Notes under the pieces: generated by a model
Seen by the model: only the letters and a program-made list of their open reading frames with translations
Database searches by the model: none
What the model was told of the DNA's origin: nothing
Source of the DNA: a virus
DNA: 23,547 bases
IMG/VR virus record: IMGVR_UViG_3300031688_000131
Coordinates: 1 to 23,547 of that record
Strand: one strand, 5' to 3'
Program-made: the position numbers and the translations under genes
In this document: in pieces, positions 326 through 11,772 of the stretch
Numbering within the stretch: position 1 is the first letter of the stretch
Layout: each line of letters opens with the position of its first letter

Positions 326-727
326 CTAATGTTTTATTAATAATTCGTGACTGGTTCCCATTGAAGTGAAACCTGATTTTGTATACTTGTCAAGTAGAAC
401 TCCAGTTTTGGCCCAAGCAAAAGAATATTTAAATCCCATGTCTTTTGCAAAGTCTTTTGTAAAGTCTACTAATAACTGTAATGCGTCACTTCTGTCATTG
501 TCTTTGTAGTATCTATCCGATACAACAACAGCTGGAATTGCAGTTTTTGAGTTTGTTGTATAAAGAAACATTGCCGCTATAGGGTCGTTCTCTTTACACA
601 CCATGAAGCCTCCTAGTCCATCATTTGGAAGGAAGTCTCTTTGAATTGGCTCTTGATCGTAAGCTTCCCACCAACTAGGTAGGAAACTCCAATCTCTTTC
701 TATTAATTTTCTTACTTGTAATTTAAT
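326..727 (-). CDS. Acetyltransferase (GNAT)-like protein, apparent non-standard start
   Basis: An ATG at 604 would give 92 residues, but the same frame stays open upstream to the nozzle-gene stop TAA at 728-730. The added 41 codons read like family sequence (RKLIERDWSFLPSWWEAY, then a DFLPNDGLGGFMV segment). I recall marine phage acyl-CoA N-acyltransferase-like proteins of about 130 residues that begin with this motif, so I annotate the long form (133 residues). No in-frame ATG, GTG, TTG or CTG exists between 605 and 727. The candidate is ATT at 727-725, directly after the upstream TAA. The later part (IAAMFLYTTNSKTAIPAVVVSD, then a helix, then KYTKSGFTSMGTSHELL) fits a GNAT-type core, where a small enzyme would move an acetyl group to an amine. 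The substrate is unknown. It sits between the nozzle and ejection genes. Family is moderately sure, start uncertain. Confidence 0.55.
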   Translation of the reverse strand: MKLQVRKLIERDWSFLPSWWEAYDQEPIQRDFLPNDGLGGFMVCKENDPIAAMFLYTTNSKTAIPAVVVSDRYYKDNDRSDALQLLVDFTKDFAKDMGFKYSFAWAKTGVLLDKYTKSGFTSMGTSHELLIKH

Positions 728-3700
728 TTAATTTGATGATATTTTAGTTTCACTGTTTACAGCGAATAGTTCTGCTTTAGTTTCTAAAGCGTATTGAAGT
801 ATTACTTTATTATAAAATCCTTTAATTCCTGATTTATCTTGAGTACCGTTTATAAATACCGTAGTGCCATCGTCTGCAACTACATCGCCTAACCCTAAAT
901 CTGTTAATCCGTAAGTAGGTATTTGACCAACTATAGGTGCAAAATACTTATCTTCCTTCTTAACAAAAGGCCATGTGTTAGCTATAACGAGATCTTCACT
1001 ATCTGTATCAATAGATGTTGCAACCCATCCTGGGGTTCCTTCATAACCTAATGTTAAGTAATCTTTTAAAGCTGAGGGATTATCATTTAAGATAACTTCA
1101 ATTTCAGATACATAAGATGCAGGTAAAAAATCACCAGGATTATCTGGATCAGGTTTAACGGGTAGATTATAAAAGTGATTCCTTGGAACTGTGTTTGAAT
1201 TGTGAACAAACATTTTACCACCTTTATAAGTGTAAAACTTATTGTTCATTGATAAACCGTCTTCAGGTACATAAGAAACCCTACTAGACCATCCTCGTCG
1301 AGCTGTTTCGTATCTCCAAGTGATATTATTAGTTTCACCTGTTATAGCGTCCTCAGCGTCAATCATGGCGTCATTTTGGTTATAACCTTGCATAGATAGC
1401 ATGTACGAACCAGAGTAATCATCATAAGCTCCTACTAGTTTAGTAGCAGAGTGTAATCGATCTCTAAAATGATCTTTCAATCCATTAGAACTAACTTCGT
1501 TTATTTGCCCATTTCCAGGAGTAACCTGTAGTACAGCACCTCTATTAGCATCTGTAATCCAAAAGTTATTACCATAACTTGCAAAAGATTCAGGATTTTT
1601 AGATATACCATACTCGCCTACGAATGGTGTGGTCTGTCCTAACACTCTGTTAGAAGCACTCACGTTGCCGCCACCGTCTGCATTAAAAAGTAAATCCTTA
1701 TCCGCTAGTATTCTAAATATCTTGTCCTCACAGGCTGCTATAATGTTTGTATCACGTGTATGCAGCAACTGTAAGCTTCCATAGTTAGGCTCTAGTTCTT
1801 TTGTTATTCCATCGGCTGTTATAAACTGATTCAGTCTATTAGTATCTGTTCTTCCGTTGTAGATTCCTGACCATGTTAAACCGTAAGGTCTTTTTATGAC
1901 TGAGTTTCTATCAGTAGGCACATTAACTTTAACACCTTTAACTAGTTGAACTGTATTAAACTTATTAAAAATTCTAGTAGTTTCAAGATATACACCAGCA
2001 TTTAAAGGCTGAACTTCTGCAATTGAGTTAAACCAATCTATTTTGTTATCACATCCATGCTGCGTACAAACACAAAACGTTTCAGATGACTCCCAAAACA
2101 AATCTAAATTAGACTCGTTAGTAGCAGGTTCTGTTTCAAACCAAAGCTGATTTAATGTTTCTAACTCGCCATCATATGAGAATTCAGATTGCGTTGTTTC
2201 TAAACCATTTCTGGCTGCTCTAACAAAGAATCTACCACCTAATCTTTCTATAGCTTGGTCTGAGGTATTTGTACTGTATAATTCAAACGTTGGGTTAGAT
2301 GGTATATTTACAGGCAAACCGCTATTTCCAGTAGCCACTAGACCAACGTCTCCTTCGTTTATTGTATATACGCCACCAAAAGTAATATCCAATTGCTTAC
2401 CATTGTAACCACGTATTGAGTTTACTTTAAGATAAGTGTTTTCGGGCGCTATATATGTGGTTGTGCCAGATGTTTTAAATCTAACATATAAATCATTAGT
2501 TAAACGAGTTAAGTCTGCGGTTGTGTCACTATTATCTACGTTAGTAATAACTTCGTCAATAGGATTAACTTCAGGTTGATTTTGTCTAATAAAACCATTA
2601 AACTCGTCTATAACTTGGTTTTGAAAAGTAAGCCTTGCACTTCCCGAGTTACTATTGCCCTCTGTTCTAAGCCCCATTAATGTATTACCTATTGTTTGAG
2701 TAGTGCTTACGTCATAAGCAGCATGCCCAAAATTACCTACATTGCTTAAAGTGACGTTAGATAAAATTTTTGATAGTTGAGATTTAACATCATCAGGTGC
2801 TTCGTTGACAATGTCCTGAACTAAAAATCTTTGTTTACTTGTTGAGGTTACAGCATTGTTTCTTCTAAGCACTAAAGTTGAAGCCTCATTATCTCCAGGA
2901 CCTCCTGTTACTTTGTTCCTATCTGTTGATTGAAATTCAATCCAAATAAATTCACTATCGGAATCTAAGCTGGAGCCATCGTTATAAATATTATAACTAA
3001 TTAAGTTGTGAAAATCTGTAGAAGGATCTTTAATAAAGTATCTATATCGGTCTGCCCATGGTGGTGCAGCTGAATTAATTGTAGTTTGTATCTGTTGTCT
3101 TGATGGCTGATTAAAAGCGCTAATCAAAGGCGACTGTTCTATTATGTTTCCATTAGTTTGTGTAATAGATCCTGCTTGAAGCATTGCTCCTTGACGGCCG
3201 TAAGCATCTATGTACGCAACTCCTACTTCATATTGCCTATTACCTTTAACATGTAAGCCATCTCCTGTACCAGCAGTTACAAAAACGTTTGTTAAGTCTA
3301 AAGCTGCAGGCTGATCAAATCCTATTTGATAATTACCATACACTAATCTATTAGCTGTAATCTCTTGAGCTTTAGCTAATTGAGGTACCTCATCATAAGG
3401 TCTACTAAGTTGATTAGCTGGCAAAGCACTATATATTTTTCTAGCTGATAATTGATATCTTAATGGTAATAAAGAATAATCATGAGGATATCTTGGTGCT
3501 CCAGTATTTGGAATCCTACCTCCTGTAGTATCAGTCTCATATGATGGACCTAATATAAAATCATGGCCTCTATGTTCTAGCGGTAAGTCTAACGTTTCAA
3601 GTACATATATAGTAGAACTAATAGATTCAGTATATAGTAGCTCAACAGCTACAACGTCTCTAGGACCTCTAGGTATTTCATTAAGGTTTATTTTACCAAC

Positions 3701-4315
3701 ATTGTTGTACATGGTGGTGTTGTATCCTTCTATAAAATTAGCTTCTTCACTGGAGTACACGGCATTACCTTGGCTAGTCCAAACAGGAGGCGCAGGATCA
3801 AAATTAACATTTGGTGCAGTAGGTACTCCAACGGTTGATGCTGCTACCCAAGATCTACCTCCACTATTAACAACATCCCCAATAGCATATCCAACTGTAT
3901 TGTCAAAATTGTTTTGCGATGTTGTTGGTCTAGTCTTTGGAATTACTGCAGGTTGTGTGAATGGAGCGTATGGACTATATTGCCCATCTTCATACTGCCA
4001 TCTATAACTAAACCTAGGGAATATTTTTTCAAAAGGCGCATCCGGTTGTAATAGCTCTTCTGCAGTAGTTGGATTGTATTCTTCTAATTCTAATGTAATA
4101 GGTTCCCACGGGTGTAACTTTATAACAGCAATATCTGCTTCATTAAAGTCGACACCTCTTATACTCGTAGATGGCCTTGTAGTGTGATCATAAGCTTTAA
4201 ATCTATCTATCTCAAGCTTCTTGGGTTCGTTAAGATTGTCGGTCCAGTAAAGGTTTCCGTCAATAATATTGACCCCAGTAATTAAGTTCTCTTCTGAAAA
4301 ATTTAATACTCCCAT
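728..4315 (-). CDS. Tail nozzle / muzzle-like protein (tail tubular protein B-type), main part
   Basis: 1195 residues. It begins with LNFSEENLITGVNIIDGNLY followed by WTDNLNEPKKLEIDRF (residues 4-39), a segment I recognise from the interior of tail proteins of marine podophages and crAss-like phages. Further family motifs are YEDGQYSPYAPF (108-119), ALPANQLSRPYDEVP (297-311), QEITANRLVYGNY (317-329), a GVKVNV/SGIYN segment, and TTPFVGEYGISKNPESFAS near 893-911 followed by TDANRGAVL. In such phages this protein forms the distal tube of the short tail below the connector. Relatives carry an N-terminal section (NxxxDxRxLPxGxYRDAxN) in the same chain. Here that section is in the gene ending at 5837, so this ORF looks like a nozzle missing its first 100 or so residues. 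The start overlaps the previous stop by one base (TAATG). Residues 141-181 look like an inserted carbohydrate-binding motif. A CxCxxHxC cluster lies at 748-755. Confidence 0.8.
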   Translation of the reverse strand: MGVLNFSEENLITGVNIIDGNLYWTDNLNEPKKLEIDRFKAYDHTTRPSTSIRGVDFNEADIAVIKLHPWEPITLELEEYNPTTAEELLQPDAPFEKIFPRFSYRWQYEDGQYSPYAPFTQPAVIPKTRPTTSQNNFDNTVGYAIGDVVNSGGRSWVAASTVGVPTAPNVNFDPAPPVWTSQGNAVYSSEEANFIEGYNTTMYNNVGKINLNEIPRGPRDVVAVELLYTESISSTIYVLETLDLPLEHRGHDFILGPSYETDTTGGRIPNTGAPRYPHDYSLLPLRYQLSARKIYSALPANQLSRPYDEVPQLAKAQEITANRLVYGNYQIGFDQPAALDLTNVFVTAGTGDGLHVKGNRQYEVGVAYIDAYGRQGAMLQAGSITQTNGNIIEQSPLISAFNQPSRQQIQTTINSAAPPWADRYRYFIKDPSTDFHNLISYNIYNDGSSLDSDSEFIWIEFQSTDRNKVTGGPGDNEASTLVLRRNNAVTSTSKQRFLVQDIVNEAPDDVKSQLSKILSNVTLSNVGNFGHAAYDVSTTQTIGNTLMGLRTEGNSNSGSARLTFQNQVIDEFNGFIRQNQPEVNPIDEVITNVDNSDTTADLTRLTNDLYVRFKTSGTTTYIAPENTYLKVNSIRGYNGKQLDITFGGVYTINEGDVGLVATGNSGLPVNIPSNPTFELYSTNTSDQAIERLGGRFFVRAARNGLETTQSEFSYDGELETLNQLWFETEPATNESNLDLFWESSETFCVCTQHGCDNKIDWFNSIAEVQPLNAGVYLETTRIFNKFNTVQLVKGVKVNVPTDRNSVIKRPYGLTWSGIYNGRTDTNRLNQFITADGITKELEPNYGSLQLLHTRDTNIIAACEDKIFRILADKDLLFNADGGGNVSASNRVLGQTTPFVGEYGISKNPESFASYGNNFWITDANRGAVLQVTPGNGQINEVSSNGLKDHFRDRLHSATKLVGAYDDYSGSYMLSMQGYNQNDAMIDAEDAITGETNNITWRYETARRGWSSRVSYVPEDGLSMNNKFYTYKGGKMFVHNSNTVPRNHFYNLPVKPDPDNPGDFLPASYVSEIEVILNDNPSALKDYLTLGYEGTPGWVATSIDTDSEDLVIANTWPFVKKEDKYFAPIVGQIPTYGLTDLGLGDVVADDGTTVFINGTQDKSGIKGFYNKVILQYALETKAELFAVNSETKISSN
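3773..3895 (-). other. Carbohydrate-binding (CBM5/12-like) motif inside nozzle gene
   Basis: Residues 141-181 of the nozzle protein read VGYAIGDVVNSGGRSWVAAS, then a TVGVPTAPN stretch, then PAPPVW. The order Y-x-x-GD-V-x-x-G-x-x-W-x-A, short linker, W is that of small chitin/cellulose-binding domains. It interrupts a region where related nozzle proteins, as I recall them, go straight from the YSPFAPF-type segment to the next strand. Confidence 0.4.
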
Positions 4316-5835
4316 TAAGTTTGTGGTCTTATTTCTACTATTACAGTAATATTCATGTCGTCAGTGTTCGCATCGTACCCAAGATTATCAGTAGCATTAA
4401 GAGAAAGTATACCATTAATATTCCCAATTCCTTGAAACTTAAACGTTTGCTGAATAACTCCTCCGCCTACAGGTGCTTCCATTAATGGATTTGCTGCTGA
4501 ATTAAAGCCTTGCCCTAAACCTGTTGAAGTAAAAGTAAGTCCATGAACTGTTCCTAAATCGTCCCAATCAGTACCTCCATCTGTGCTGTTAGCTCCACCT
4601 CTAGTTTGCGCCATAGCCAGCTTAACAGGTCTATCTTGCGTTGGTCTGACTGGTGTTACACCCCACGGGTGTATTGTTATACTCATTTCCCATAAACCTC
4701 CTCCAGCAAATTGAAAACTAACCCTATTTTGTCGTTTAGAAAGTCTTCCTGGTGTAGGGAAAATAGCGAACGGTCCACTGCCTGGTACAGTAAGCCAGTC
4801 AAGTAAAGCACTCGGTGTGCCTCCCATAAATATTGTAGGTAGCGCAGCTCTTGTTTCAAAAACAACTGTGATTGAATTTGATACAGTGTTCCCGTTAGGG
4901 TCAGTGTATGTTCCTGTTACAACGCGTGTTTGAGCTGTATGTCGTGTAAATTGTTGTTGCCAACTAAGAAGATCTTCAAATTCTCTGCGACTAGCTAGCG
5001 TTACATCATTTCTATCTTGAAACCCTAGCCCATCATCAACGGTAAACACAACTTGTTCTCCGTTACCATCTGGTATTACTGGCGCAGTTTGGCCTGGAAG
5101 AAGAGTGTAGCTAAGATGTGCATGCAACACTACATTTGAATCTGTAAATACAGGTCCGCTTTGAGTTAACACAAGAGATGGTCCTGGTGGTGGATCTGGA
5201 ACAACAAACGGAGTTGGTCCCACGATTGGAGGTGGAGTTGGTGCTACTGTTCTAATAAAATCTTGTCCTATATTAAAAAAGCAAACAAGACCTCCTACAG
5301 TTAATGAAGGTTGCCCTCTTCTCGCGGAGTTAGCTGAAGTTATTTGATCTACTAATGTAAATTCTTGTACAAATGTACAAACGTTTACATTCATTGTAGC
5401 ACATGTAGTAGCTCCGTCAGCAAGAATCCAATTGTTACCTTCGTTGCTAAATGCGACTGTTTCGTAATGAGGTGCATTTACTCTAACTTGACCTGAGGCT
5501 CCTGTAGCTGCAAATGTTCTATCAGTTTGATCTAAGCATTCAATTATAGATACTCTTCTGCGTTCTGTGACTTGGTCATTACAACCAGTCATCCCTATTT
5601 TTATCTCACAGTAGTATTCACCTGAGCTAGCCACAGATGTTAAATCTACTTGATACTCTTTAGCGATAGCGCCAGTAATCTCAACTGCACCACCTCCAAG
5701 TAAATCATCAAAAAACCATTGATAATGTAAACAAGCTGCTAATTTGTGAAAGATATGAATCTCCACGTTATCAGCGTAAACCCGCGCTGTTAAAGGCACG
5801 GGTACTGTTGAATTTATATGTTTATATGTTGTCAT
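4315..5835 (-). CDS. Ig-like domain virion protein inserted between nozzle parts
   Basis: I choose ATG at 5835 (MTTYKHINST, 506 residues). A longer frame opening at 5946 would overlap the last 37 codons of the upstream gene, while 5835 lies one base after that gene's stop. Residues about 8-95 look like an Ig-like fold: a YQWFFDD strand with Trp40, then the hallmark SSGEYYCEI (Cys76). A proline-rich hinge (PTPPPIVGPTPFVVPDPPPGP, about 210-232) precedes a second all-beta half. That half contains a TVDDGLGF/TGTYTDPNGNTVSNSITVVF segment like PKD/Ig repeats, and a C-terminal region ending NITVIVEI. There is no membrane segment or catalytic motif. Phage Ig-like domains usually decorate the virion and bind carbohydrate weakly. 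Its position between two halves of a nozzle suggests a tail-surface part. The exact function is not recognised. Confidence 0.6.
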   Translation of the reverse strand: MTTYKHINSTVPVPLTARVYADNVEIHIFHKLAACLHYQWFFDDLLGGGAVEITGAIAKEYQVDLTSVASSGEYYCEIKIGMTGCNDQVTERRRVSIIECLDQTDRTFAATGASGQVRVNAPHYETVAFSNEGNNWILADGATTCATMNVNVCTFVQEFTLVDQITSANSARRGQPSLTVGGLVCFFNIGQDFIRTVAPTPPPIVGPTPFVVPDPPPGPSLVLTQSGPVFTDSNVVLHAHLSYTLLPGQTAPVIPDGNGEQVVFTVDDGLGFQDRNDVTLASRREFEDLLSWQQQFTRHTAQTRVVTGTYTDPNGNTVSNSITVVFETRAALPTIFMGGTPSALLDWLTVPGSGPFAIFPTPGRLSKRQNRVSFQFAGGGLWEMSITIHPWGVTPVRPTQDRPVKLAMAQTRGGANSTDGGTDWDDLGTVHGLTFTSTGLGQGFNSAANPLMEAPVGGGVIQQTFKFQGIGNINGILSLNATDNLGYDANTDDMNITVIVEIRPQT

Positions 5836-5836
5836 T

Positions 5837-7711
5837 TTAAGAATGTGTTGGTAAAGGACAATTATCTCCGCCTTGTAATCCGCCTCCAAAGTCAATGCTA
5901 CCTGTTCTTCCTGATACTTGATTCCCTTGAGAATCACAAGGTACATAAGTTATATTATAAGTTATATCAAAAGTCCGTGGTGACACTAAAGCGAAAAGTG
6001 ATCCACCGCCAGTCACTGCCGAGTAAAAGAATCCTGTATCTGAAGTGATAGTGTAATTACAATTCGCGAATGAGGCTGGTGGATTGGAAGTTGCAGTGGC
6101 TGAATTTCTTGTGATAGTCACACCAAGATTCGATACTGCGTCCACTACTGGTATATGAAATACTCCATTAGCATCTGAGCCTGCTACTTCCGAAGTAAAA
6201 CAGTTTGCATTAACAGGTCCTTGACCTCCATCAAATGGGTCTCTGTTAGTCGCTACGGCATTAAAGGTAACCTCCGTGTGACTTGCATTAGCGCCTACAT
6301 CAAAAGTAATCGTGAAATCAGTATCACCTATGGGTAAACTACTAGGATTAGGGAAGGTTTCTCCATTGATATTCGTAGGTGAAGTTGTTATACCACCCGC
6401 TCCCATTCCGGCGGAAGCTTGAACGCCATTAGCAGCAAAGTTAGAAGTTATTCTTAATACGAAAGAATTACCTGTTGATCCTCTTACAACAGATGTTGGT
6501 AAACCATTAGGTAGAGAGAATATAAAGTCGCCTACGAATGGTACTGCCTCAATTCCACCACCAGTCCAAGTTACAGTTATAGTTGCATCCGCAATAGGAT
6601 TCCATGTTCCTGATATAGTAACCGAAGCTGCGTTGGTTCCAGTAGTTCCTCCGGTAACTGCACCAGCTGTTACACCTGCAGGTAATCCCGATACTGTAAA
6701 GGTAGGCGCTGTTCCGCTCCATTGAAAGCCTGAGCTTGGAGTTATAGTTGATTGAAAAGATATTGGTTCTGGAGTACCTTGAATACCTTGTTCGCTGCCA
6801 ATACCACCAGCAACTGAAGAGTTAGTCACTCCTCCGCCTGTACTAGCTGATAAATTATGAGTAACAATTGCTGCGGTTGAGAATACAACAGTATAGGTTG
6901 CTGTAGCAGAGCCGTTATCATCTGTAGCTGTTACGCTACCGTTTATAGTTGTACCTGTCCCACTAACTGATATGCTAGAAGTTGTTTCACCAGTGCTCCA
7001 AAGAAATGAAACCGTTCCAGTTGCTGCTCCAGCACTAGCTGTTAGTGTAACCGGAGAAGATGCGTCAGGAAATGTTCCTGCTCCACTTATAGATACAGTT
7101 ATATTATTAGGTGGTGGGGGTGGCGGTGGATATGTGCATGTATCAGCCGTGTTAGCACTTGAATTATAATTACTGGCAGACGGATCCATACAACCGTATA
7201 CTCTAGGTATACAAGTTCCATTGTCAAATTCTGCAGCTGCATTATAATTAAAAGCACCTGTATTTGTACATCCCCCTACCGGTGGAGTAAATACAATGTT
7301 TATGTTAGGTCTCATGTTAGGATCATCCGGTGTTAGATCCAAGAATGGTCTTAACTCAGGAGCACATTGAGGTTTTACTTTATCTCTTCCAACCGAATCA
7401 ATTAATATAGTACTAACACTATCATTAGGTTCATCGTATTCATAAATAGCATCTGTAGTTGCGCCTTTATTAAACCAATATACTTTATCGTTATTAGGGT
7501 CTCTAACCGAACCAATAGTAGTACCTACAATAGTTGTTTGGCCAGCTATCTCTTCATTTCCTTTAAGATTTTCAACAGCACCAACATCTCCACCTTCAGA
7601 CTCTCCAACGTTAACGTTAAGAGCATCTCGGTAAGTTCCCGGCGGTAGCATGCGAGCATCTACGTCTCGTTCTATCTTAGCTTGATTAAATAGTCTTTTA
7701 ACTTCTCCCAT
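5837..7711 (-). CDS. Nozzle N-terminal segment fused to GC-NYN repeats and Ig/PKD-like domains
   Basis: 624 residues. The first ~110 (FNQAKIERDVDARMLPPGTY, RDALNVNVGESEGGDVGAVE, IGSVRDPNNDKVYWF, IYEYD, STILID) match the N-terminus of podovirus/crAss-type nozzle proteins as I remember them. The sequence that normally follows (LNFxxxNLITGxNxIDxxLxWTDN) is absent here but opens the ORF at 4315. From about residue 147 there are two GC-x6-NYN-type cysteine repeats (147-167, 173-192), a seven-proline run (195-201), and then serial beta-rich units. The first is PKD-like (VTLTASAGAATGTVSFLWST, then TATDDNG). Later Gly/Ser/Thr-rich units end with a cysteine-containing tail (GGDNCPLPTHS). This looks like a tail baseplate anchor carrying display domains. 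A terminator-like hairpin lies upstream at 7765-7793, so expression may differ from the capsid genes. The N-terminal call is fairly sure; the display role is inferred. Confidence 0.65.
   Translation of the reverse strand: MGEVKRLFNQAKIERDVDARMLPPGTYRDALNVNVGESEGGDVGAVENLKGNEEIAGQTTIVGTTIGSVRDPNNDKVYWFNKGATTDAIYEYDEPNDSVSTILIDSVGRDKVKPQCAPELRPFLDLTPDDPNMRPNINIVFTPPVGGCTNTGAFNYNAAAEFDNGTCIPRVYGCMDPSASNYNSSANTADTCTYPPPPPPPNNITVSISGAGTFPDASSPVTLTASAGAATGTVSFLWSTGETTSSISVSGTGTTINGSVTATDDNGSATATYTVVFSTAAIVTHNLSASTGGGVTNSSVAGGIGSEQGIQGTPEPISFQSTITPSSGFQWSGTAPTFTVSGLPAGVTAGAVTGGTTGTNAASVTISGTWNPIADATITVTWTGGGIEAVPFVGDFIFSLPNGLPTSVVRGSTGNSFVLRITSNFAANGVQASAGMGAGGITTSPTNINGETFPNPSSLPIGDTDFTITFDVGANASHTEVTFNAVATNRDPFDGGQGPVNANCFTSEVAGSDANGVFHIPVVDAVSNLGVTITRNSATATSNPPASFANCNYTITSDTGFFYSAVTGGGSLFALVSPRTFDITYNITYVPCDSQGNQVSGRTGSIDFGGGLQGGDNCPLPTHS
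7136..7273 (-). repeat. Two GC-x6-NYN-type cysteine repeats within the nozzle-anchor gene
   Basis: The encoded copies are GCTNTGAFNYNAAAEFDNGTC and, five residues on, GCMDPSASNYNSSANTADTC, with paired cysteines 19 and 18 residues apart. The pattern GCxDPxAxNYNxxAxxxxxxC is a short repeat I know from secreted proteins of marine Bacteroidota and some phages. It is followed at once by a polyproline spacer (7109-7129). Within each copy the two Cys could form a disulfide or, with the Asp/Asn residues, a small metal-binding loop. Both are inference. Confidence 0.6.
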
Positions 7712-7764
7712 TTGATTTGTTTAGTTATATTACTTAAAGATTGCATTATTATTATAAAAACACA

Positions 7765-7793
7765 CGTTACACCGAATTATATTCAATGTAACG
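7765..7793 (-). terminator. Terminator-like hairpin between connector and nozzle genes
   Basis: On the minus strand CGTTACA pairs with TGTAACG (7 bp). Inside, after a 2x2 mismatch, GAAT pairs with ATTC around a 3-base loop. Four bases downstream comes TTTTT, then a T/A-rich run (7756-7745). It lies 43 bases after the stop of the 314-residue gene and about 50 bases before the nozzle-anchor start, within the largest gene-free gap of the window (7712-7836). Most likely an intrinsic, perhaps leaky, terminator. A processing site is the alternative. Confidence 0.55.
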
Positions 7794-7836
7794 CGCGCAT
7801 ATGTATATATTACTCAAAAACTTAAAAACAGATAAT

Positions 7837-8781
7837 TTAGTGTTTTATCCACTTAGCTTTTCCTCTCATTACCTGAGCTATTTCAGCCATATCATAGTCT
7901 TGTAATCTTATCTTGGTATTCCTCATTTTAGCACTTGCTTCTTTCTTATATAAAGCAACTGCCATTGCAGCAGACGGTCTAACCTTACACAGGTTATATA
8001 TAATGAAAGCATACATAGCGTCCTCAGCTAGTTTGGGTATCATAACGTTACCTAAATCCCCGTTATCAGCTAAACCATCAGATATGTAATGAAAGTTGAT
8101 TAGAGAGTCCGTACCGCGCTCTATTGAACTATCGAAGAACACAACACCTGCATCGTTATCAATGAAGTATGTACCTGAAGAGTTTGAGTGAGATGGGTTA
8201 CTTCCAAACCTAGCATTAAAGTAAGAGAAGTTGTCATCGTTAAAATTGTTATCATAAAAGTCTTGAGCTGTGCCTCCGTCTGGAACTGCAGCTTGGAACT
8301 TTTGTATACCTTCGGTATCTCTAACAGTTTGATTTGTCCCTGCAAACGGATCAAATACGTAATTATAATTTGCATCCTGTATGAAAGACGAACCGTTAGT
8401 GACGTCTTTAGCAGGCATAAGTAATATGTTAGTACCTTTAGCTGTTGTTAAAGTTATTTTGTTTAGATTAACATAATCTTGAGGCAAGGGGAATTGCCCA
8501 GCAGGACCTAATTCTATTTCAATAGACTTGTTTGAACGCAATATATCGTAGCTAAACTCTTGCATACATCTCTGAGCCCAAAATTCAACTTCATACTTAG
8601 GGACTTTAGATATTATCTTACCATCACCTGTATAAGCCACTATAAAGTTATTTACAACATCCTCTATTGAAGTTCTACTGTAATAACCTAGCCCTTGAAA
8701 GTTAGCTGGTATATCAGCTACTCTAGATTCAAAGTCTGCGTAATAACCTAATTCAGTATGTACTTTTCTTGATATAGCCAT
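7837..8781 (-). CDS. Head-tail adaptor / tail connector protein
   Basis: 314 residues. Helical N-terminal part with RTSIEDVVNNFIVAYTGDGK (36-55), then a Trp/Gln-containing helix (FWAQRCMQEFSYDILRSNKS), then a beta section (IELGPAGQFPLPQDYVNLNK). A small beta insertion follows, then INFHYISDGLADNGD and a helical tail (EDAMYAFIIYNLCKVRP ... GKAKWIKH). The layout of a helix bundle with a PLPxDYV loop and FxYxSDG strand is that of the adaptor that sits under the portal in marine podophages and resembles the gp11/gp4-type tail tubular A or stabilisation proteins. The gene starts where the preceding gene ends (ATG of this gene shares 8781 with that stop), so the two are translationally coupled. Role in the connector is inferred from family resemblance and position between capsid and nozzle genes. 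Confidence 0.65.
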   Translation of the reverse strand: MAISRKVHTELGYYADFESRVADIPANFQGLGYYSRTSIEDVVNNFIVAYTGDGKIISKVPKYEVEFWAQRCMQEFSYDILRSNKSIEIELGPAGQFPLPQDYVNLNKITLTTAKGTNILLMPAKDVTNGSSFIQDANYNYVFDPFAGTNQTVRDTEGIQKFQAAVPDGGTAQDFYDNNFNDDNFSYFNARFGSNPSHSNSSGTYFIDNDAGVVFFDSSIERGTDSLINFHYISDGLADNGDLGNVMIPKLAEDAMYAFIIYNLCKVRPSAAMAVALYKKEASAKMRNTKIRLQDYDMAEIAQVMRGKAKWIKH

Positions 8782-10347: not shown

Positions 10348-11772
10348 TTATTTCAATAAGAAGAAGTTGTTTGCTCCTTGTGTAATCAAAGCACGTTCAG
10401 ATAAGAAATTAACTCTCATTTCGTCAATGTCAGAAGTTTGTGCACCACCAACAGATCCAGTTAACCAAGTTTTTAATTTTCTATCGTCAGTCTCAGAAGA
10501 ACGGTAACGTACGTGTAAGAATGGACGCTTGATGTTTTTACCAAGATCTTGATCGTATACAGTAGACGTTCCAGCAGGAATGATAGTTCCTTCAACATCT
10601 CCAAAACCACCTCTTGTTGCGAAGTCATTTAAGTATTTCCAGTCAGTCTTGTAAAAGTCATAAGAACCACGACGGAAACCAGAGAAGCCTAAGTTTAATG
10701 CCATATCTTCTTCGTTGTTGAATACTCCGTAAGAAGTACCACCAGCTCCGTAAGAATTTTTAGACGCTAAAACATCATCAATTGCTAAAGAAAGATCACG
10801 GTTTGCGTAGATCATATTTTCTTCAATAGATCCGTTCTTGTCTAATTGCTTAAGGATAACATCGAAACCATCCATTGTTGGAGTTCCACCACCTCTAAGG
10901 TCAGTAGCAAGATCAGTGTAAACATTACCACGAGCTTCAAGAGCTGCGAAGTAACCTTCAGATCCCTGTACAGTAGCTGCACCAGCAGCAGTAAGCTTAA
11001 CTGACTCAACCATAGACATTTCTAGGTAGTCCTCAAATCTTTGGCGAGTTTCGTGCTCAGACTTTAGGTACCATAGGTATCCAGATTTTCCACCATTACC
11101 TTCAACTTCAATCCATCCGATTTGAGCAGTGTCAGAACCGCTGATAGCGTAGTTGTCTTTTAAGATAATTGGCTTGTTAGTGTAAGAGTTGTAGTCAGCG
11201 TCAATTGATCCAACCATTCCGGCAGATCCTTTAGCAAACTCAGATCCGTAAACAACAGCAGTTGCAGCAGCAAAGCCAGCAGCGCCTGTTACAGCAGCCC
11301 AGTCAGCAGCAGTGTAAGGAAGAGCAGTAAAGGTTCCAGTACCACCAGCAGCGGTTACACCAGAAACTGTTACAACACCTTTTACAACTGGTCCAGTATG
11401 TGCACCAGCAGCAGTTAATCCTTGAACCATGATAGTTTGTCCTACTCTCATAACTGGAGCAGAAGTAGCTTCAACGCCAGCAGGGTAAGTTACTGTGAAT
11501 ACGTTAGTTCCAGCAATTTGAATGTTATCGTAACGTGTGTGAAGACGTCCTTGTTCTACCCAACGAATCTCGTCAGAAGTTGAAGGCATCTCAGCAGATA
11601 CTAAACGTAAGAAAGAAGTAATAGAGCGATTTCCGTAGATCTCAGCTTCTTTTTCGTATACATCTGGTAAAAATTGTTTTGTAAAGTCGAAATCATTAAT
11701 ATAATTTCCTTGAAATAATTGTCCTTTTGTTTGAGAAGGTTGTAAGTTCCCAATTCCAGTAGTTAATGCCAT
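10348..11772 (-). CDS. Major capsid protein
   Basis: 474 residues, following scaffold and portal genes. N-terminal arm with NYINDFDFTKQFLPDVYEKE, then SITSFLRLVSAEMPSTSDEI and RWVEQGRLHTRYDN. An Ala/Gly/Thr/Val-rich beta insertion lies at about 88-175 (VMRVGQTIMVQGL ... VVYGSEFAKGSAGM). Then comes an E-loop/long helix region (KSEHETRQRFEDYLEMSMVE, then LEARGNVYTDL), and a C-terminal region with DFATRGGFGDVEGTIIPAG and KRPFLHVRYRSSETDDRKLK. Order and composition fit the HK97-fold capsid proteins of marine podophages and crAss-like phages. The gene uses noticeably regular, GCA/GCT-rich alanine codons, as expected for a strongly expressed product. It has an A-rich leader without Shine-Dalgarno, and a terminator-like hairpin follows at 10293-10315. 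Alternative roles are unlikely. Confidence 0.85.
   Translation of the reverse strand: MALTTGIGNLQPSQTKGQLFQGNYINDFDFTKQFLPDVYEKEAEIYGNRSITSFLRLVSAEMPSTSDEIRWVEQGRLHTRYDNIQIAGTNVFTVTYPAGVEATSAPVMRVGQTIMVQGLTAAGAHTGPVVKGVVTVSGVTAAGGTGTFTALPYTAADWAAVTGAAGFAAATAVVYGSEFAKGSAGMVGSIDADYNSYTNKPIILKDNYAISGSDTAQIGWIEVEGNGGKSGYLWYLKSEHETRQRFEDYLEMSMVESVKLTAAGAATVQGSEGYFAALEARGNVYTDLATDLRGGGTPTMDGFDVILKQLDKNGSIEENMIYANRDLSLAIDDVLASKNSYGAGGTSYGVFNNEEDMALNLGFSGFRRGSYDFYKTDWKYLNDFATRGGFGDVEGTIIPAGTSTVYDQDLGKNIKRPFLHVRYRSSETDDRKLKTWLTGSVGGAQTSDIDEMRVNFLSERALITQGANNFFLLK

Follow-up and report, generated by a model that had tools for sequence, protein, structure and literature searches.

A crAss-type tail muzzle encoded in separate open reading frames, with variable sequence at the break, in an environmental phage and its relatives

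The muzzle locus and the position of its break

The subject of this analysis is the tail muzzle region of an uncultured podophage, IMG/VR virus record IMGVR_UViG_3300031688_000131, a 23.5-kb virus record, probably a fragment, whose positions 1 to 23,547 make up the whole stretch of DNA analysed here and are referred to below as the window. The genes of this region are all encoded on the minus strand, and the muzzle sequence is divided between the first and the last of three consecutive open reading frames (ORFs) that follow one another in the order ORF1, ORF2, ORF3. Their coordinates and junctions, as given by an initial annotation made from the sequence alone, proved correct when the sequence was read again. 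The features of the split region are as follows.

7711-5837, minus strand: ORF1, 624 amino acids (aa)
7400..7711, minus strand: muzzle N-terminus, ORF1 residues 1-104, comprising the N-terminal segment and propeller blade 1 (PHROG_14478 positions 1-104; independent muzzle profile 1-112; four-stranded blade in the AlphaFold2 model)
7394..7522, minus strand: predicted propeller blade 1, ORF1 residues 64-106 (AlphaFold2 strands 64-71, 76-82, 86-93 and 98-106; equivalent to 64-112 in the model of relative L097)
5837..7393, minus strand: ORF1 C-terminal extension, about 518 aa, rich in T/S/G/N/V/P and unrelated to the muzzle (no family match; composition)
7136..7273, minus strand: cysteine motifs GCTNTGAFNYNAAAEFDNGTC and GCMDPSASNYNSSANTADTC (GCTNTGAFNYN...C, GCMDPSASNYN...C), then a proline run, visible in the sequence
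5833..5839, minus strand: junction of the ORF1 stop and the ORF2 start, TAA-A-ATG, with a one-base gap
4315..5835, minus strand: ORF2, putative extra chain within the break, about 506 aa, ATG at 5835 and stop at 4315
4313..4317, minus strand: overlap of the ORF2 stop and the ORF3 start, TAATG, read from the sequence
728..4315, minus strand: ORF3, muzzle remainder from blade 2 to the C-terminal ELFAVNSE end, 1195 aa (PHROG_14478, 4.7e-81; muzzle profile 115-1116)

The real start of ORF2 is the ATG at 5835, one base past the TAA of ORF1, the listed start at 5946 being merely that of the longest open frame. ORF1 and ORF3 share a reading frame and ORF2 lies in another, as the initial annotation had noted; the fact stands, but the shared frame carries no meaning, because the chains of other split relatives (L057, L063 and L065) change frame.

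ORF1 residues 4-106 match positions 1-104 of the 1474 positions of PHROG_14478 (5.6e-19), four stretches of ORF3 match this family too, and the Pfam family crAss_MUZ scores 26.8 bits on ORF1, 0.2 bits below its cut-off of 27. Both parts lie in a single gene, gp097, in Cellulophaga phage phi38:1, where ORF1 residues 1-106 align to 60713-61033 and ORF3, from its residue 3, to 61043 onward; the muzzles of the elemo phages and of Tenacibaculum phage Gundel_1 likewise run past this point in a single chain. The suggestion that a protein which is one chain in relatives is encoded here in separate chains, with unrelated sequence at the break, was therefore borne out, as was the alignment of the N-terminal segment to proteins of this kind. 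The name "tail nozzle" under which the protein had been described was right as to the N-terminus in ORF1 and the resumption in ORF3; the family is properly the crAss-type muzzle, which is a nozzle homologue.

How the pieces complement each other was read with a muzzle profile built from 27 relatives whose chain is whole here, so that neither the window nor any split relative contributed to it. The profile is covered at 1-112 by ORF1, at 115-1116 by ORF3 and nowhere by ORF2, so that the break in the window loses and duplicates no muzzle sequence. Comparable sets are found in the split relatives L091 (1-114, 113-190 and 198-1118) and L092 (1-125, 113-187 and 198-1118). The N-terminal part is conserved to a degree similar to that of the remainder (45.7% against 36.8-46.2%, both to L022), and the C-terminal muzzle piece of the window is part of the ORF3 chain. 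The N-terminal part of ORF1 and ORF3 together are a crAss-type tail muzzle, T7-nozzle-like. Homology over the N-terminus, propeller and C-terminal region, fold (ring-joining part and propeller, on L097) and gene position agree with the Crassvirus/phi38:1-type muzzle family, and the one departure, three ORFs with stops and restarts instead of a single polypeptide, is treated as a variant feature and not as grounds for exclusion, the cultured phage phi46:3 varying likewise. By portal, the nearest annotated phages are an unclassified Caudoviricetes, Maribacter phage Panino and the elemo and phi38:1 groups.

Evidence on the fold comes from L097, a relative with one chain across the break site. An AlphaFold2 model of L097 residues 1-923 (mean predicted local distance difference test score, pLDDT, 72.7; predicted template modelling score, pTM, 0.73) contains a four-stranded blade at 64-71, 76-82, 95-101 and 106-112, the position of the break following immediately after the last of these strands. 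When this model was used in a fold search, the best matches in the PDB were to the phiCrAss001 muzzle (7qok, E=3.2e-27; 7qol, 1.2e-26), followed by tail proteins of cyanophage A4 and SU10; a sequence-profile search of solved structures did not reach the crAss muzzle, which the fold search did. The model of ORF1 from the window likewise shows a four-stranded blade, at about residues 55-108, the one part predicted with confidence; outside it the model is unreliable (mean pLDDT 37); ORF1 alone gave only chance matches against the PDB. Since the blade models of L097 and of ORF1 both end at the break, the split runs between blades, just after blade 1, cutting none.

Recurrence of the break and turnover of its inserts

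Relatives, labelled here by locus (L followed by a number), were gathered by a portal scan and by an alignment scan with the structural protein encoded directly upstream of the muzzle, yielding about 160 loci; single-protein scans of viral contigs found nothing with ORF3 and only two loci with this upstream protein, which also forms the basis of the tree described below.

7837..8781, minus strand: 314-aa virion structural protein, called the ring protein by its position (PHROG_13977; directly upstream of the muzzle in relatives)

Four break sites were distinguished: site A between blades 1 and 2, as in the window; site B at the next blade link; site C at about 576-590 of the model; and site D before the C-terminal ELFAV piece. 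With duplicates removed, 86 environmental contigs were readable at site A, 18 of them split there and 68 not; the contigs are metagenomic and partly related, and such counts do not represent independent events. In a ring-protein tree, the 17 split rows, including the window, and four rows unsplit at site A form a supported clade of 21 rows (100/94), and a single origin of the site A split was not rejected (approximately unbiased test, p-AU 0.42). A contig in a Bacteroidetes metagenome-assembled genome (MAG), L168, is a further, 18th case. The break is thus seen in 17 contigs besides the window, from many metagenomes and one MAG, with differing inserts and junction types. A candidate which was set aside is L163, where a frameshift at site A (11215-11227) comes without an insert and the relative L153 is open; it was counted as a probable error, and would otherwise resemble a nascent split.

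Most members of the split clade that can be read through have a second break, at site B. When the records of ten split relatives were searched whole, each contained exactly one co-directed set of muzzle pieces, two in L089 and three in the nine others (about 1-113, 104-185 and 194-1070), and no second muzzle copy was found in these ten. The MAG assembly of L168 holds, besides its own set, another muzzle, split at site C, on a different contig. The hosts of the cultured relatives are Flavobacteriia, and of two MAG contigs one is labelled Bacteroidetes and the other Flammeovirgaceae.

Breakage is not confined to site A. All four sites could be read in 49 environmental contigs, which are broken at D (23), at C (18), at A and B (3), at A (2), at C and D (1) and at A and C (1), with one unbroken; breaks at C and D were called from profile matches and checked against ORF lists for a subset. 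Hence 48 of the 49 are broken, L147 being the sole exception, and nearly all have a single break region. The A and C contig is L163, which would count as C alone if its frameshift at A is an error. In L022 and L082, both unsplit at A, the C-terminal piece is a gene of its own (107 aa), lying after an ORF of 2,288 and 2,347 aa, respectively; no larger cassettes than these ORFs (L173 467-7330 and L172 446-7486, reverse strand) were seen at any of the breaks. Cultured phages provide an instance as well: phi46:3 gp112 (L006 12852-13577) and phi19:3 gp121 (L007 12855-13580) are separate C-terminal muzzle genes, annotated as structural, which follow an insert of about 1.5 kb, while the cultured elemo phages and phi38:1 are unbroken at the sites read. 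In Maribacter phage Panino (L001), the muzzle homology spans two annotated genes and shifts frame between them, at model position 672 (about 11121-11124), which may be a frameshift, an error or another split. The split thus goes beyond what the initial annotation had anticipated in three ways, being clade-wide, mostly accompanied by a second break and matched by sister clades broken elsewhere.

The inserted sequence is exchanged between close relatives. L090 and L092 share 94% DNA identity in the ring protein and 95% in the N-terminal part, and their inserts are alike for 683 nt and unrelated thereafter. L030 and L022 are 97.5% identical upstream, yet several hundred residues have been inserted in frame into blade 1 of L030. 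This insert (L030 9428-11161, against L022 17600-17908) is flanked by proline-rich repeats and is a recent insertion. Separately, seven loci (L028, L047, L052, L091, L066, L094 and L093) have a small ORF of 69-82 aa (e.g. MAQFQISP...VTVEYTEI), in another frame, between chain A, the counterpart of ORF1, and the next chain.

The ORF1 extension and ORF2 of the window, about 1,000 residues in all, match no domain in Pfam, PHROG or NCBIfam, and no recognisable immunoglobulin (Ig)-superfamily, BACON or C-type lectin domain was found in them with Pfam and NCBIfam. A search with patterns from the extension gave no relative among viral contigs, and a single-protein scan of viral contigs gave no homologue of ORF2. 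The residues T/S/N/G/V/P make up 60% of the ORF1 tail, which has few charged residues and contains two cysteine motifs, and the guanine-cytosine content of the insert is 0.41-0.43, as against about 0.36 in neighbouring virion genes. The inserts of other phages have matches to Ig_2, PKD, FN3 and BACON below the cut-off and to Cadherin_3/Cadherin_4 above it. The earlier description of the ORF1 tail and ORF2 as Ig/PKD-like or cysteine-repeat display domains was not upheld: no domain is matched, the blade is the one confident part of the ORF1 model, and the two cysteine motifs are what is visible. As the window's insert matches no known domain, a display role is suggested by its position, its composition, its turnover and the domains found in the inserts of other phages.

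Proposed reassembly from separate chains and its rivals

Several observations point to translation of the pieces as separate proteins. Codon usage favours the frame of ORF1 up to its stop (5.87 against -2.87) and that of ORF2 up to its own (3.77 against -7.08). Downstream chains begin with MASN, MASK, MAEK, MAAI and similar starts (MA/MS/MP) at the homology boundary, and the restart codons, more like the starts of ordinary genes in this respect, outscore internal methionine codons as start contexts (65 against 482, p=6e-22, a value overstated by the relatedness of the sequences).

We propose that the muzzle is made as separate, consecutively translated chains, of which chain A would consist of the N-terminal segment and blade 1, with a long and variable extension joined to its C-terminal side, ORF2 would be an extra protein inside the break, and the ORF3 chain would restart at blade 2 and carry the remaining muzzle. 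The break falls between two blades and leaves every blade whole, for which reason the muzzle parts probably join again into one propeller without a covalent bond; the N-terminal part, being as conserved as the remainder, can be argued to keep a structural job. Where a loop had joined two blades, breakage would leave a free C-terminus and a new N-terminus, and a domain of any length could hang there, because its two ends need not meet. The inter-blade links of a propeller all lie on one face. Since they share this face, and since the phiCrAss001 muzzle has its in-line Ig-like domain IG1 distally placed, at the link that follows this one, the extensions are probably directed at the host, where they may act as swappable adhesion or receptor-binding modules, binding to the host surface seeming the likeliest of their uses.

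A muzzle of several chains, reassembled without covalent linkage and bearing swappable tail-tip domains at the chain ends, is in our judgement the probable explanation of this locus. With somewhat less assurance, the proposal may be widened on balance, for this large group of environmental phages, to the muzzle as a display platform made by chain breakage, with two, three or four chains and breaks at one of a few fixed positions (between blades 1 and 2, between blades 2 and 3, in the middle domain or ahead of the C-terminal piece), with variable ectodomain cassettes of about 400 to over 2,300 residues at each break, the position depending on the clade and nearly every phage having one break region. 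Four points weigh against this interpretation: the ORF1 tail and ORF2 of the window match no known domain; the start contexts in the window are moderate, that of ORF2 beating 84% and that of ORF3 87% of internal methionine codons; the split muzzle is known here at the level of its genes; and the placement of the extensions on the distal face would follow from reasoning and not from coordinates.

The strongest rival, which we nevertheless consider unlikely, is that ORF3 is a working muzzle by itself and that ORF1 has been repurposed as an independent fibre or adaptor, keeping the blade 1 region only for docking to the barrel. The long variable end of ORF1 does resemble those of tail adhesins, and its four-stranded blade is predicted with confidence by itself. 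However, nothing is duplicated, ORF3 lacking the N-terminal part and each split record of the split set having one such part, and this part is as conserved as the remainder, as a part still completing the propeller should be.

A good deal less probable is that the gene has simply decayed or been split at random, to no purpose, with the inserts as passengers. Phage genes are often split and the inserts of the window have no known domain, but long open inserts are kept across the clade while being swapped, and breakage in all but one of the fully readable contigs, nearly always in a single region, suggests a shared purpose.

It is slightly less probable again that a self-splicing intron, an intein or a programmed frameshift or readthrough restores one muzzle chain. 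In favour of this are the frame shared by ORF1 and ORF3 in the window and the fragmentation of genes by introns and inteins in Zeta crAss-like phages (PMC7886860). Yet no Rfam match was obtained at E<=1 in window positions 600-8000, nor at the gathering score in six relatives; no intein domain was found in Pfam scans; and no RVT_1 reverse transcriptase domain, such as a diversity-generating retroelement would bring, was found in the records of 12 relatives, which may be incomplete and did not include the window. The inserts are long open frames, protein-like, comprising several ORFs with changing frames, multiple stops and fresh ATGs, and in L057, L063 and L065 the chains are not in one frame, so that splicing or readthrough into one chain appears unlikely.

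Finally, sequencing or assembly error, by which the three ORFs would be one gene with false indels or the insert would be mis-joined into the muzzle gene, is very unlikely and the least credible of these explanations, given the same break in the 17 other contigs with different inserts and junction types, the codon usage of ORF1 and ORF2 up to their own stops and the MA/MS/MP restarts at the homology boundary, even if the window is probably a fragment and the frameshift of L163, without an insert and beside the open L153, shows that stray cases exist.

Known systems, significance and neighbouring genes

For the muzzle encoded here in separate chains, the closest structural counterpart is phiCrAss001 gp44 (PF25731/PF25729; 7qok, 7qol), which in profile searches is homologous to the relatives at the N-terminus and in the C-terminal domain, is the best fold match in the PDB, occupies the same place after ring-type virion proteins and has additional domains of Ig-like type at links of its propeller, namely IG1, which separates blades 2 and 3, and IG2, in blade 3 (PMC10172136). 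Whereas gp44 is one chain with in-line Ig domains, the muzzle is broken here between blades 1 and 2, and in most of the clade also at the next link, the additions standing on chain ends. The phiCrAss001 muzzle has been proposed to gate the release of genome and cargo, and its kinship with the T7 nozzle has been stated (PMC10172136). The closest cultured homologues, virion structural proteins of the phi38:1 type (PHROG_14478; phi38:1 gp097, Flavobacterium elemo phages, Tenacibaculum Gundel_1), share the gene order but are each one gene and one chain across site A; phi46:3 and phi19:3 offer a cultured instance of a muzzle break at another place. The T7 nozzle (gp12) and SU10-type nozzles are also beta-propeller tail-tip proteins, SU10 and cyanophage A4 appearing in the fold search, but consist of one chain; we know of no comparable inserts in T7-type or podophage nozzles. 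Phage Ig-like and BACON adhesins and tentaclins are modular beta-rich domains of Bacteroidota and gut phages for which surface binding has been proposed or shown (PMC13370021, PMC6949934, PMC10743442). Similar domains are found in some inserts of other phages here, but these proteins are separate adhesins, PMC13370021 and PMC10743442 mention no muzzle, and the insert of the window matches none of them.

The muzzle family, its propeller and the in-line Ig insertions are therefore already known; a muzzle encoded as separate chains is new within the literature searched (subscription journals lay outside its scope), in which no description of one was found. If the proposal is true, a propeller of separate chains would be a gate without covalent link that could open along a seam, and the gain of a free chain end, with exchangeable domains of any size, would be a simple reason for the repeated breakage of a structural gene. 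Its predictions, namely the chains in virions, the position of the seam and a host range that follows the cassette, can be tested by ordinary means, with phi46:3 and phi19:3 as a practical cultured system for the multi-chain idea. Annotation pipelines will miss N-terminal or C-terminal muzzle pieces in these phages.

The genes immediately upstream of the muzzle in the window match PHROG_14543 and PHROG_13977, with the portal and terminase beyond, and the placement of the muzzle after ring-type virion proteins follows the same order as in L002 and L004. On the other side lies one further gene.

326..727, minus strand: gene after the muzzle (phrog_17252), 76.9% identical to L089 15286-15690 over the whole 134 aa

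The 92-aa ORF listed here is the 3' part of a longer frame that reaches upstream of the listed ATG. No ATG stands at the expected start of this frame (IKLQVRKLIERDW...), which suggests a non-AUG start or a sequence error. A phrog_17252-like gene follows the muzzle end in the window, L089, L082 and L022.

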